This document shows positions 27,128 to 35,988 of a stretch of DNA of 64,000 nt, one piece after another. The DNA comes from Allobaculum mucilyticum (lineage in GTDB: Bacteria; Bacillota_I; Bacilli_A; Erysipelotrichales; Erysipelotrichaceae). The stretch lies in assembly GCF_022701195.1 (NCBI RefSeq), contig NZ_CP078089.1, forward strand, positions 1,612,001-1,676,000, read 5' to 3'. The position numbers and the translations under genes were made by a program. The notes under the pieces were generated by a model. The model made no database searches. It was not told the origin of the DNA and was given only the letters and a program-made list of their open reading frames with translations. The number at the start of each line of letters is the position of its first letter. The first letter of the stretch is position 1.

Positions 27128-27960
27128 AGACCTGGCGCCGGCTTGCGATTCCTTATCTGATCTGGGGATCGTTCATGCTGCTGCTGCCGATGCTTCTGAT
27201 CGTCTTCTATTCGGTCATTCAGCCAGGCAACGATGTGGCGACTTTCCGCTTTTCACTTTCAAGCTATGTCCGCTTCTTTACCGACCGCGACTTTCTTCTG
27301 ATTCTGTGGCGTTCGCTGAAGATTGCGATTGAAACAACTGTACTGTGTCTGCTGATCGGCTATCCGGTAGCCTACTGGATCAGCCGCTGCTCGCAGAAAA
27401 CGCAGAATCTGATGGTTCTGATCATTACGCTGCCCATGTGGATCAACATGCTGGTACGTACTTATGCATGGATCGGCATCCTCTCTGAGGGCGGACCGCT
27501 CTCCATTGTTTTAGGGTGGTTTGGCTTCCATAATGTCGATCTGCTCTATACCGAAGCGGCGGTTCTGATCGGCATGGTCTACAACTTCCTGCCGTATATG
27601 ATTCTGCAGATTCACTCTTCGCTGACCAAAATGGATCCCTCGCTCATCGAGGCGGCCAGTGATCTGGGGGCTTCGCCGTTCCAGACCTTCTGGCGCGTCG
27701 TGTTCCCGCTTTCCATTCCGGGTGTTATTTCCGGAATTACACTGGTTTTCCTGCCCGCTATTTCCGCATTCTTCATTCCGAAACTGCTTGGCGGCGGCGG
27801 ATGGTTCCTGATCGGAAACGTCATTGAAAACCAGTTCATCACCGTTGGCGAATGGAACTTCGGTTCAGCCATTTCTGTCATCATGGCGATGGTCATGATG
27901 CTTCTCATGACCCTTGTGCGCAAAGCTGACCGCAAGGCATCGAAGGAGGAGAAGGCATGA
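27124..27960 (+). CDS. potB: Spermidine/putrescine ABC transporter permease PotB
   Basis: This 278-residue permease has six membrane helices. The EAA loop is [25 protein letters not shown] near residue 178, which contacts the PotA ATPase. It overlaps potA by 4 bp (ATGA) and potCD by 4 bp, so the operon is tightly coupled. Confidence 0.93.
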
Positions 27961-31139: not shown

Positions 31140-31436
31140 AAGACGTTAGATATAGAAAATAGTTATAAATGTATAAATACAATTTTAGATTGCCCTCTGA
31201 TGGCTATATGCAAGCAATCCGTACAGGAAACGAAAGTGCTTCAGGAGAACACTTCCAGCAAGAGATAAAAATGCAGCAGAGCAGTTCAGTGCAGAGCAGA
31301 AGGGGAAACGGACAGATTCTGCTAAAATAAGTCCGCACAAACTTTATCCGGATGGATGCACAATCAGGACTCAAAGGCGCATCCAGACCGGAAACTGAAA
31401 AAGAACGGTGTGCATAGAAAGAGGGAGGTGACGGGT

Positions 31437-34400
31437 TTGGAAAAACAGACCTTTAATGTAACCGGCATGACCTGCGCAGCCTGCCAGGCAGCGGTCGACC
31501 GGGCCGTCCGGAAACTGGACGGCGTGGAAAGCGCGGACGTATCCCTGCTTTCCGAAAGCATGAACGTTGAATACGATCCGAAGAAAGTCACAGCTGAGCA
31601 GATTGAAGAAGCAGTCAAGTCTGCCGGCTATGGAGCCACTCCGCAGCAGACACAGGAAAGCGGCAAGACTGAGAGCGCCGCGCAGATCTGGGAACAGCGG
31701 AGCGAGCGGATCCGTGCAGAGTCTGAGCAGAAGAAAAAGAAGCTGATCATTTCACTGATTCTTCTTTGCGTACTGCTCTGCTTCTCCATGCTTCCGATGC
31801 TTGGCGTCTTTACATTTCTGATGGATATGGAATGGATGATGGTTGATGGCGTCATTCAGCTGCTGCTGTCTACAATTATTCTTTTCGTACAGAGAGATTT
31901 CTTTACACATGGCTTTAAAACCCTGTTCCATGGCAGCCCGAATATGGACACCCTGGTCGCAGTCGGTTCATCCGTATCATTTGCTTACGGCTTCTATGGC
32001 CTGCTTTTGATGGCATATGGCTATGGAACGATGGATCATGCGCTGATTCATAGCGGCATGAACGCACTTTATTTTGAAAGTGCTTCGATGATCGTCACGC
32101 TGGTTTCTCTGGGCAAGTATCTGGAAGCCCGCTCAAAGTCGAAAACCGGCGATGCGATCGCCAAGCTTGTTTCGCTTGCACCGAAAACCGCAATGGTGGT
32201 GCGTAACGGCGAATTTGTTGAAATTCCAGCCGAAGATGTCCGGATCGGCGATAAGATCCGGATCGTTCCGGGTGCTTCGATTCCAGTAGACGGCGTGCTC
32301 GTTGAAGGCAACGGAACGCTTGACCAGTCGGCAATTACCGGCGAATCGATGCCTGTTGATAAAGTCAAAGGCGATCAGATCATGTCGGCTTCGACCAACC
32401 TGAACGGTTCGTTTGTCATGGAAGCAACTCGTGTCGGATCGAATACGACGCTGGCACAGATCATTACGCTCGTTGATGAGGCGGGCAACTCCAAGGCGCC
32501 GATCGCCCGTCTGGCTGACCGCGTCTCGGGTATCTTCGTACCGACGGTTCTGACCATTTCAGCCCTGACGTTTGTCGGCTGGCTGATTGCCGGACAGTCC
32601 ATCGGCTTTGCACTCAACTGCGCGATTTCTGTTCTTGTTATCTCGTGCCCGTGCGCGCTTGGACTGGCTACGCCGCTGGCCATCATGGTTGCTACAGGCA
32701 AAGCCGCCCAGTACGGCATTCTTGTTAAATCGGCAAGTGCGCTTGAAACGCTTGCCAAAGTCAATACTGTGGTTATCGATAAAACCGGAACCATTACCAA
32801 AGGTCAGCCTGCGGTTGTCTCTGTTGCACTGTTTAACCGCACACTGAGCGAAAGCGATTTTCTGAAAGTTGCAGCTGCTGCTGAATCCGGATCGGAGCAT
32901 CCACTGGCTAAAGCCGTTCTTGCCCGCGCAAAAGACGATCATCTGGTTCTGCCTGAAGCAAAAGACTTCCAGGCATTCGGCGGCAAAGGCATGCGTGCTG
33001 TGGTCAATGGCATCACCGTTCTTGCCGGCAACCAGACATTCATGAATGAGCAGCATATAACTCTGCCTGCTCAGGCTGACGAAGCTGCCGCAAAGATCGC
33101 CGATCAGGGCGGAACGCCGCTTTACTTTGCCTTTGACGGTATTCTGACTGGCATCATCGGTGCTGCGGATGAAGTCCGCACATCTTCGCGCGATGCGATT
33201 TCGCTGCTGCGCAAAGACGGCATTGAAGTCATCATGCTGACAGGCGATAACGCACGTACCGCAAAAGCCATTGCCAGCAAGCTTGATGTCAGCGATGTAA
33301 TTTCCGATGTTCTGCCTGCAGATAAGGAAAGCGTCATCCGCAAGCTGCAGGAGCAGGGCAAAATTACTGCGATGGTCGGCGACGGCATCAACGATGCCCC
33401 AGCTCTGACCCGTGCAGATGTCGGCTTTGCGATTAAATCCGGTACAGATATCGCGATTGATTCGGCTGACATTGTCCTGATGAAAAACAGTCTGCTCGAT
33501 GTTGTTACTGCCATTGAGCTCTCCAGATCCACAATTAAAAACATCAAGGAGAACCTCTTCTGGGCGTTCTTCTACAACCTGCTGGGCATCCCAGTTGCTA
33601 TGGGCCTGTTCTACCCGATCAACGGCTGGCTGCTCAACCCGATGATCGGTGCAGCCGCAATGTCCTTCTCGTCTGTCACCGTCTGCCTGAACGCGCTCCG
33701 TCTGCGTTTCTTCAAACCGGCAAGAGCTGTTCTTGAAGATGAAAAAGAATCCGAAACAGGATCCTCTTCCCCGGCAGTTCCGGCAGTTTACTACGATGTC
33801 GAAGATCAGCCAGCGGCAATCATTCTAGATAAAACAGCAGAAGCCTCTGCAAAACCTGCATCTTCTGCTCATCCGGATACGACTGGCTTAACCGGTACAA
33901 AACTGAGTCTGAAGATGGCCGGCTCGCCGACCCGCAAAAGTGCGGCAGCACCGGCAACACAGACTGAAAAAGCCGATCAGCCGGCAGCGCTGCAGACAAC
34001 ATTCTTCCTGGTTGATGGCATGAGCTGTGCACACTGCTCGGGCCGTGTAACCAAAGCACTTGAAGCAGTAGAAGGCGTAACAGGCGTTAAAGTTTCTCAT
34101 GAAGACGGAACGGCATGGATTACAGCCGACCGGAAGATTGACGATGACATACTTGCTCATGCGGTAACTGAAGCCGGCTATGAGGTACGCAGCGACGAGC
34201 CTTCCATGTGTGCAAACCTTGCCGCGTTTGATCCAAAGAATCAGTCCGCTGTCGATGACGCATTGAACCGTATCCATCAGCTGGATTTAAACCTTTCCTG
34301 GATCAGCTACTTCCCCGATGAAAAGATGCTCTGCATCCATGGCGATCCGCTGCCGGAAGAACAGAATATTCTCGGCCTGTTTGAAGCAGATCAGGCCGCT

Positions 34401-34628
34401 TCGAAAGATGGCAAAGGAGGTGAAAGCATGATTCTGAAAATTGACGGCATGTCCTGCAAACACTGCCAGGCACGTGTAGAAAAAGCGCTCAGCGAAGTTC
34501 CGGGCGTTGATTCCGTAACGGTCAGCCTTGAAAACGGCACAGCTGAAGTCAAAGGTGCAGATCTGAACCCTTCGGCTCTTGCAAAAGCAGTTACAGCAGC
34601 AGGCTACTCGGTCAGTGCGATCGACTAG
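31437..34628 (+). CDS. copA: Copper-translocating P1B-type ATPase with C-terminal HMA domains
   Basis: This 1063-residue copper exporter has an N-terminal heavy-metal domain (GMTCAAC, Cys13/Cys16), eight membrane helices and a TGES loop. The membrane metal site is CPC at 404-406, the phosphorylation site is DKTGT with Asp448, and the P1B HP motif is in GSEHPLAKAV. After the last helices comes a Pro/Ala/Ser linker, then two more HMA domains at the C-terminus: GMSCAHC (Cys864/867) and GMSCKHC (Cys1007/1010), with a degenerate stretch between. C-terminal HMA domains are unusual. Translation starts at TTG 31437, 6 bp after GGGAGGTG; the in-frame ATG at 31356 has no such site. See the nested start at 34428. 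Confidence 0.92.
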   Translation: MEKQTFNVTGMTCAACQAAVDRAVRKLDGVESADVSLLSESMNVEYDPKKVTAEQIEEAVKSAGYGATPQQTQESGKTESAAQIWEQRSERIRAESEQKKKKLIISLILLCVLLCFSMLPMLGVFTFLMDMEWMMVDGVIQLLLSTIILFVQRDFFTHGFKTLFHGSPNMDTLVAVGSSVSFAYGFYGLLLMAYGYGTMDHALIHSGMNALYFESASMIVTLVSLGKYLEARSKSKTGDAIAKLVSLAPKTAMVVRNGEFVEIPAEDVRIGDKIRIVPGASIPVDGVLVEGNGTLDQSAITGESMPVDKVKGDQIMSASTNLNGSFVMEATRVGSNTTLAQIITLVDEAGNSKAPIARLADRVSGIFVPTVLTISALTFVGWLIAGQSIGFALNCAISVLVISCPCALGLATPLAIMVATGKAAQYGILVKSASALETLAKVNTVVIDKTGTITKGQPAVVSVALFNRTLSESDFLKVAAAAESGSEHPLAKAVLARAKDDHLVLPEAKDFQAFGGKGMRAVVNGITVLAGNQTFMNEQHITLPAQADEAAAKIADQGGTPLYFAFDGILTGIIGAADEVRTSSRDAISLLRKDGIEVIMLTGDNARTAKAIASKLDVSDVISDVLPADKESVIRKLQEQGKITAMVGDGINDAPALTRADVGFAIKSGTDIAIDSADIVLMKNSLLDVVTAIELSRSTIKNIKENLFWAFFYNLLGIPVAMGLFYPINGWLLNPMIGAAAMSFSSVTVCLNALRLRFFKPARAVLEDEKESETGSSSPAVPAVYYDVEDQPAAIILDKTAEASAKPASSAHPDTTGLTGTKLSLKMAGSPTRKSAAAPATQTEKADQPAALQTTFFLVDGMSCAHCSGRVTKALEAVEGVTGVKVSHEDGTAWITADRKIDDDILAHAVTEAGYEVRSDEPSMCANLAAFDPKNQSAVDDALNRIHQLDLNLSWISYFPDEKMLCIHGDPLPEEQNILGLFEADQAASKDGKGGESMILKIDGMSCKHCQARVEKALSEVPGVDSVTVSLENGTAEVKGADLNPSALAKAVTAAGYSVSAID
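34428..34628 (+). CDS. Nested in-frame CopZ-like copper chaperone inside copA
   Basis: Within copA, an ATG in the copA frame is preceded by AAAGGAGGTGA (34413-34423), a perfect complement to the 16S rRNA tail, with 7-bp spacing. Translation from it gives a 66-residue protein with one HMA domain (GMSCKHC near residues 7-13), the usual size of CopZ. The same residues are the last domain of CopA (998-1063). It may therefore be made twice: fused to the pump, and as a free cytosolic chaperone. Expression of the short form is inferred from the ribosome site only. The alternative is a relic of a former separate copZ that became fused. Confidence 0.6.
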   Translation: MILKIDGMSCKHCQARVEKALSEVPGVDSVTVSLENGTAEVKGADLNPSALAKAVTAAGYSVSAID

Positions 34629-34657
34629 TCCGATCTCTTTAATCATTCATGCATAGA

Positions 34658-34719
34658 AAAGCAGTCCCTGTATCTGGGGTTCACCATGGCGTGAACGTCC
34701 GGACAGGGACTGCTTTTTT
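34658..34719 (+). terminator. Terminator of copA
   Basis: AGCAGTCCCTGT (34660-34671) and ACAGGGACTGCT (34703-34714) form a 12-bp stem followed by TTTTTG. The loop carries a small extra hairpin. Confidence 0.88.
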
Positions 34720-34736
34720 GATTGGATAACTGATCA

Positions 34737-35988
34737 TTACTGGTTTCGCATCATGGCCTGCAGACCTTTGCTTAAAGGCGTAACGGGAGGCGCAAATGCA
34801 GGTTCTGTTTCTGTATCCTGCGCAGAGGACGGCTTTTCGTTCTCTGCAGAACTTGGTTTGTCTTTGGACTCTTCTTTGACTGGCGAGCTGTAGCGGACAA
34901 CTTTTGCCTTTGCGGGAAGCGTGTTTTTTGTCATCCAGGAGTAGACGAGGCTGGAGAGTTCTTTCATTAAAGCAGAGGCCTTCTCAATGCTCTGTATGTC
35001 ATCGCACAGCAGCGTAATGACGTAGCAGCCGCTGCCTGTCTCTACAAACATCGTGTCGTTTTCCGTACCGGGTACCCAGCCAGGCTTATTGCCGGTATTG
35101 ACGGAAGTCGGCAGTCCCAGCAGCAGACGGCCCGGAACAGCCTGCGTTTCCAGCAGCTTTTTCATCTGCGAGGAATTGCGCAGCGTTCCATTGCAGATGT
35201 CATAGAGGAGCTTGGAGGCATCTTTTGCGGAGGTGTAGTTGCCATAAGGCACGTTCGACATGGTCGTATCTTTGTAGCCATGGGATTTGTTCCATGCATT
35301 GAGAACGGAGATGCCTTTGACATAGTCGCCGTTTCCCAGCACTTCGACCAGGTTGACCCAGGCGTTGTTATCGGAAATGGAGATCATAACGGACAGCTGT
35401 CCGTCGATATAGGATTTGCCAAAGCGCTTTGCGTAGTCTTCGTAATGGTCAAAAATAGCCCCCATGACAAAAGCCTTCATGACAGATGCAGACTGCTGTG
35501 CTTTGGAATTGAGCACAAATGATTCGCCAGTCTGCACATCCCGCAGGGCAAAGGCGATCTGTTCGCCCTTTTTCGCAGAACGGGAAATCCGCTGGCGGAC
35601 CTGAGTTTCCAGATCGCCAAGATCCAGAATCCAGGCGCCGGTGTCGGGATCAAAGGCATAGACGCGTCCATCCAGACAGATCGGATTGCGTACCATGACT
35701 CCTTCATCATCAAAGTAGCGGACTATGGAACCGGATGAATCCGCAACCCAGGTGTTTTTGAGCGTTTCGCCTGTTTTAGGATCGCAGAACAGCACCTTTT
35801 CTCCGGATTGTACGTAGCCGCTCTGTTCAGCGCCTGATGCATCGAGAAAGACGGTGCGGGCCGTGCCTTTTTCATCGGTTCTTGTCCAGAATCCGCCAGC
35901 TGTATCTGCCGCAGCACGCATCAGCGGCTGTTCTGCCAGCAGATCCTCCATGGTCAGAACGGATTCCGGCTTTGGATTCGTGGCGGCA
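34737..35988 (-). pseudogene. 3' part of IS-disrupted secreted serine hydrolase (beta-lactamase-like)
   Basis: This is the C-terminal half of a gene cut by the IS at 35989-37638. Domains in order are wall-binding-type repeats rich in Gly/Trp/Tyr (GGFWTRTD..., YFDDEG...) and a class A beta-lactamase-like serine hydrolase: SASVMK as SxxK, SDN in SISDNNAW, and KPG in place of KTG. The tail is Pro/Ser-rich. The fragment has an ATG at 35951 but no ribosome binding site before it. The reading frame joins exactly to the 37639-38648 fragment when the IS and one target copy are removed, giving about 750 residues. Such proteins are often secreted wall-associated hydrolases, not resistance enzymes. Confidence 0.85.
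35980..35988. repeat. Target site duplication, left copy
   Basis: GTGGCGGCA directly precedes the left IS end and is repeated at 37639-37647 after the right end. Confidence 0.9.

Follow-up and report, generated by a model that had tools for sequence, protein, structure and literature searches.

A candidate CopZ chaperone nested in frame at the 3' end of copA, with an internal start conserved among Bacillota

In E. coli, the copper chaperone CopA(Z) is the N-terminal domain of the pump CopA, released by a -1 frameshift and an early stop. That E. coli copA yields a chaperone by frameshifting is attributed to Meydan 2017 and Drees 2017 in PMC9548414. The locus described here is comparable in that one copA gene would provide both a pump and a free HMA copper chaperone; however, the E. 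coli chaperone is N-terminal and made by frameshifting, whereas here it would be the C-terminal domain, made from an internal Shine-Dalgarno (SD) sequence in the same frame and contained in the long product as well. As the site lies in frame at the 3' end of the gene, the mechanism proposed for it is not frameshifting of the E. coli type. A second parallel is Cas11b, which is made from cas8b by internal in-frame initiation, as proven with a Met-to-Ala mutant (PMC11899642), and which is likewise the C-terminal part of a large protein separately made from an internal in-frame ATG. Cas11b belongs to a CRISPR effector, whereas the candidate nested CopZ belongs to metal transport and rests on sequence conservation. 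An internal in-frame start is also described for a type III secretion component (PMC8553256). The tandem copA-copZ genes of Bacilli encode the same two proteins in the same order, but have a stop between the genes; in the window (the whole 64 kb stretch of DNA analysed here) that stop is gone and copZ lies wholly inside copA. We found no report in the open-licence literature of a CopZ produced by internal initiation within copA, an absence that is not proof.

The features of copA in the window are as follows.

31437..34628, (+) strand: copA, encoding a Cu+ P1B-type ATPase (open frame, Pfam and NCBIfam matches)
31443..31640, (+) strand: N-terminal HMA domain, GMTCAAC (domain search; residues 30-95 of the 1090-aa frame)
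34005..34184, (+) strand: first C-terminal HMA domain, GMSCAHC (domain search)
34203..34406, (+) strand: putative degenerate HMA-like domain without CxxC (from a single-sequence model)
34413..34423, (+) strand: internal Shine-Dalgarno AAAGGAGGTGA, encoding K-G-G-E in the copA frame (sequence)
34428..34628, (+) strand: candidate nested copZ with in-frame ATG, 66 aa, sharing its stop with copA (sequence, Pfam/NCBIfam, start conservation)
34434..34607, (+) strand: last HMA domain, GMSCKHC, forming the body of the candidate CopZ (domain search)

The open frame of copA (1090 aa) runs from ATG 31356 to the stop codon at 34626-34628, and its true start is most likely TTG 31437 rather than that ATG; a GGGAGGTGA SD with a dG of -16.2 is found at 31423, before the TTG. 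With TTG 31437 as the start, the 27 leading codons of the full-length ORF (31356-31437) are likely untranslated. Three HMA domains of the window's CopA exceed the Pfam cut-off, one N-terminal and two intact C-terminal, and the first C-terminal one lacks an ATG and SD of its own. The single-sequence model of 34203..34406 has a beta-alpha-beta-beta-alpha order (block pLDDT about 54-72), which suggests that this stretch is likely a decayed HMA domain; a Pfam search of it returned nothing at E values up to 1. Stretches that look alike on visual inspection also stand ahead of the site in the genus's other species (L002-L004, L008).

Among the four HMA matches of the genome, the last HMA domain of CopA (34434-34607) scores highest. 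The first-pass annotation had proposed an SD and ATG ahead of this domain, and both are present, although the SD begins at 34413, two bases after the 34411 it gave. ATG 34428-34430 is in the copA frame, four bases after AAAGGAGGTGA, and from there to the stop the sequence encodes 66 aa, the length it had predicted for CopZ; a start codon with a ribosome site thus stands within the frame of a longer gene at 34428. The arrangement AAAGGAGGTGA-N4-ATG occurs a single time in the 64 kb with zero mismatches, and 4 times with up to two mismatches, against 0.45 expected from shuffles; among the other three of these matches, that at 27942 marks the start of an ORF at 27957. The 66-aa product scores 69.9 bits against Pfam HMA (cut-off 24.8) and consists of a single HMA domain with CxxC (GMSCKHC), in keeping with a CopZ defined as one such domain of about 65-70 aa. 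It reaches 84.9 bits against the NCBIfam CopZ model NF047957, whose cut-off is 85, and scores under the cut-offs of the remaining CopZ models. The SD energy of -16.1 kcal/mol has a p of 0.015 among 1000 synonymous recodings with the amino acids fixed; this is only modestly above chance by itself, and so it is the comparative evidence that carries the case. With that evidence, we consider it very likely that a single copA frame yields both a CopA-CopZ fusion and free CopZ, the latter through an internal start kept after copA and copZ were fused.

In the window's order, pump matches were obtained in 58 of 59 genomes, the window's own included, some of them being other P-type ATPases. Sixty stretches were hand-chosen from the matches, mostly one or few per genus, four of which (L082, L109, L113, L119) had no readable tail. 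The copA 3' ends of the order, read from the matches themselves and from these stretches, amount to 103 tails from 64 genera, 87 fused (with one to three HMA domains) and 16 not, shares that do not give prevalence because the rows are the best matches to the window's CopA. Setting aside L008, whose frame is broken, and one tail whose locus contains no stop leaves 85 fused tails from 50 genera. An in-frame ATG lies 4-20 codons before a C-terminal HMA motif in 83 of these 85 (48/50 genera), and each of the 83 starts has an SD of dG <= -5.8 kcal/mol (mean -9.6; <= -8 in 64/83). The start of multi-HMA tails is mostly found before the last HMA domain; in L023, L025, L027 and L062 it stands ahead of the final two, for predicted products of 145-156 aa. 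A frame break ahead of the site in G001 (L008, L031) was discounted as a likely sequencing error, given that this single-contig genome is 58% complete and has another copA break. A phylum-wide search returned genomes of the same class or nearer only, with little gained.

A second set of named genomes was scanned with seven fused CopA segments, yielding 80 loci, from which six unreadable tails and L208 (a duplicate of a counted genome) were removed to leave 73. Fused tails make up 48 of these 73, which makes no statement on prevalence since the set was picked by likeness to fused CopA, and the start is present in 47 of the 48. The set includes Acetobacterium tundrae (L202), Schaedlerella arabinosiphila, Acetatifactor muris, Butyrivibrio sp. 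FCS014, Megasphaera massiliensis, Hornefia butyriciproducens and Aedoeadaptatus ivorii. Over the 130 starts of both sets, the product would be 60-85 aa long in 125. Relatives with the same protein and no ribosome site, which the first-pass annotation thought would speak against internal initiation, do exist but are few: in the order these are L034 and L077 (2/85), which have no ATG in that range, and L203 is the sole fused tail of the named set without the site (1/48). The site is also missing from L194, which represents another species of the genus of L077 and was not included in either count. It is present in the remainder, recurring in many related bacteria of gut and soil.

The SD-like stretch and the Met could instead be features of a protein linker, or a translational pause site, with the long CopA alone being made. 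We regard this as very unlikely, yet it has some footing in that Lys, Glu and Gly, whose codons are SD-like, abound in the linkers. For this reason single-locus tests are often weak (p <= 0.05 in 29/83 loci of the order and 8/47 of the named set), and synonymous nulls, for which codons were resampled from each gene, themselves average -5.0 and -6.6 kcal/mol. Against these nulls, the genus-level mean SD of the order is -9.44 versus -4.97 (sd 0.29; z -15), with 47/48 genera stronger than their own null, and the mean of the named set is -9.68 versus -6.56 (z -7.8), with 45/47 starts stronger than their own null; related sequences are not independent, a caveat on all of these statistics. Codon choice shifts at the SD itself and leaves neighbouring codons unaffected, which speaks against a linker or pause site. 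Across the 130 starts, Glu is written as GAG in 82/96 cases at codon -4 and in 8/54 at codon -3 (Fisher 6e-18), compared with 645/1901 in the core; Lys is AAG at codon -5 in 56/76 and at codon -6 in 8/42 (Fisher 9e-9). The neighbouring codons of the same genes act as a control, so base composition does not explain the shift, and weighting by genus leaves the picture unchanged (in the order, GAG at -4 in 29.6/36 genera and at -3 in 4.7/24). The SD also occupies several codon phases (phase 2 in 65/83, phase 0 in 16/83 and phase 1 in 2/83 of the order; 34, 12 and 1 of 47 in the named set), meaning that different residues spell it (K-E-E, K-G-G, Q-E-V, Q-G-E). The site is therefore conserved past amino-acid constraint, as judged by synonymous nulls and codon choice, which bears out what the first-pass annotation had suggested looking for.

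Position and strength of the site likewise argue against a linker feature. The Met stands 8 residues before the motif in 87/130 starts. Under a rule of position only (Met 6-9 residues before the last motif), for which the tail without a stop was kept, a Met is present in 76/86 fused tails of the order, all 76 with an SD <= -5.8 (mean -9.6), and in 45/48 of the named set, 44 of the 45 with such an SD. In contrast, Met occurs at 6-9 residues in 1/30 non-last HMAs of the same tails of the order, and its SD is not <= -5.8. A looser rule (ATG with SD <= -6) finds a site before 66/85 last versus 3/30 non-last domains (Fisher-tested). Elsewhere in the genes, in-frame core ATGs of the order (n=1556, including true starts of full-length loci) average -2.5, and 1.7% of them reach -8, against 64/83 tail starts; in the named set 3.5% of 1935 core ATGs do so against 42/47 starts, while 17% of these core ATGs reach -5.8. 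A 17-codon core stretch holds an ATG with SD <= -5.8 at 5.3% of 50538 positions. SD strength resembles that of true starts, with tandem copZ starts averaging -9.1 (n=26) and copA N-terminal starts -9.15 (n=100); in 74 paired genes, the internal start is stronger than the copA start in 40 and equal in 2. In the null and energy comparisons, the scored start was the strongest-SD ATG among candidates, for the true-start controls also. Chance SDs arising from Lys/Glu-rich linkers are rejected on the basis of the synonymous null, codon choice and the non-last HMA control.

The start might also be a relic of the fusion that has no function in the window's species. The few fused tails without a site (L034, L077, L194, L203) lend this some weight, as they imply that the fusion can live without it. 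Against it, the site is kept in 48/50 genera while the surrounding linker residues vary, and the SD of the window is very strong (-16.1). Furthermore, the only HMA match in the window's genome outside copA is a small protein near a second P-type ATPase at 2379491, whose VDCPNCA motif we take to be CadA-like. We therefore hold a functionless start to be very unlikely. An intact free-standing HMA frame of <=160 aa, in a count made by hand with the limit set while reading the tables, is absent from 7/20 fused and 0/20 non-fused genomes (Fisher p 0.008), a difference in favour of a working internal start; against it, some small HMA frame is also present in 13/20 fused genomes.

The preferred reading, internal initiation from a retained copZ start, is consistent with the distribution of gene states among relatives. 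In a tree of 96 CopA cores, a branch with full SH-aLRT support sets all fused rows of the order apart from 39 rows, among which L141, from outside the order, is the single fused one; two rows that group on the fused side are not in-frame fusions (L168, with no tail, and L198, overlapping). Four state changes suffice for this tree, and 7 for a tree of 168 rows with L198 left out, in which the non-fused rows on the fused side are L168, L204, L213, L216, L245 (cut near a contig end) and L276; both are quick trees with the root not fixed, so the direction of change from tandem to fused is one we infer. L141, with an SD of -5.8, is placed among tandem relatives and is an independent fusion. A recent or species-specific fusion is rejected by the trees, and their best reading is an old copA-copZ fusion common to the clade. 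Thus, comparison supports the earlier idea of a fusion with its copZ start retained, though not that it was caught in the act.

Separate copZ genes, which the first-pass annotation had suggested looking for in relatives, are indeed found in tandem; beyond the order, 15/23 non-fused loci have a frame carrying an HMA motif within 420 nt after copA. Among rows on the tree's fused side, L213 has copA and copZ parted by a single in-frame TAG, L204 is split too, and the copZ of L198 begins 20 nt ahead of the copA stop, in the +1 frame, behind an SD of -11.7. A chaperone of L198 could only arise by initiation within copA, and natural variants such as these three speak for a working start at the site. 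With tandem, overlapping, one-stop and nested states all present among relatives, intermediates of the fusion would be visible.

We propose that ribosomes from the copA start, probably TTG 31437, would translate as far as the stop at 34628, yielding a CopA that carries a C-terminally tethered CopZ domain, while others would bind the SD at 34413 and initiate at ATG 34428, letting free 66-aa CopZ accumulate. Delivery of Cu(I) by CopZ to such ATPases is stated in PMC11970713. Free CopZ would carry Cu(I) through the cytosol to CopA, and perhaps also to a copper sensor, and the tethered copy may serve as an additional metal-binding domain. Such a gene probably originated when copA and a downstream copZ were joined in frame by loss of the copA stop, with the copZ start then selected for. 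More broadly, though with less assurance, we favour the view that copA is generally a two-product gene in a large Bacillota clade, with a nested in-frame CopZ whose site is maintained and which is the sole CopZ in some species, and that a pump-plus-chaperone gene was reached independently by Enterobacteria (frameshifting) and Bacillota (internal initiation). If so, this would be a second, independent way to obtain copper pump and chaperone from one gene, kept across many genera, and CopZ could be overlooked in Bacillota annotation wherever the long CopA alone is listed.

Least probable of all is that free CopZ comes by another route, an internal promoter or linker cleavage: the title of Drees et al. 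2017 (in the reference list of PMC9548414) does name differential transcript formation besides frameshifting for E. coli copA, but a scan of 33600-34760, a weak test, found no sigma-70-like promoter, and cleavage needs neither an SD nor an ATG.

At the level of RNA, we found no unusual structure at the internal start; its surroundings are not unusually open (z 0.13 and -0.52), which speaks against the preferred reading. In the minimum-energy fold, a portion of the SD is paired with nucleotides immediately 3' of it, and translating ribosomes could open this pairing; as the fold is no stronger than shuffles, we offer such opening as an idea. Downstream of copA lies one further feature.

34656..34719, strand not assigned: strong T-tract hairpin (folding energy -45.2 kcal/mol, z -7.8)

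This hairpin is probably the terminator after copA; a consensus terminator scan gave a weaker hairpin at 34619-34635 and did not include 34656-34719 among its results. Small frames were also seen downstream of copA in relatives. In the Bacillota loci L203 and L276 there is an extra small HMA-like frame (GMMCGMCE), of a type other than CopZ. In several of L012-L030, the start of a frame beginning MKAD or MQAD coincides with the copA stop or comes directly behind it, frequently as TAATG; these frames resemble a CsoR-type sensor.
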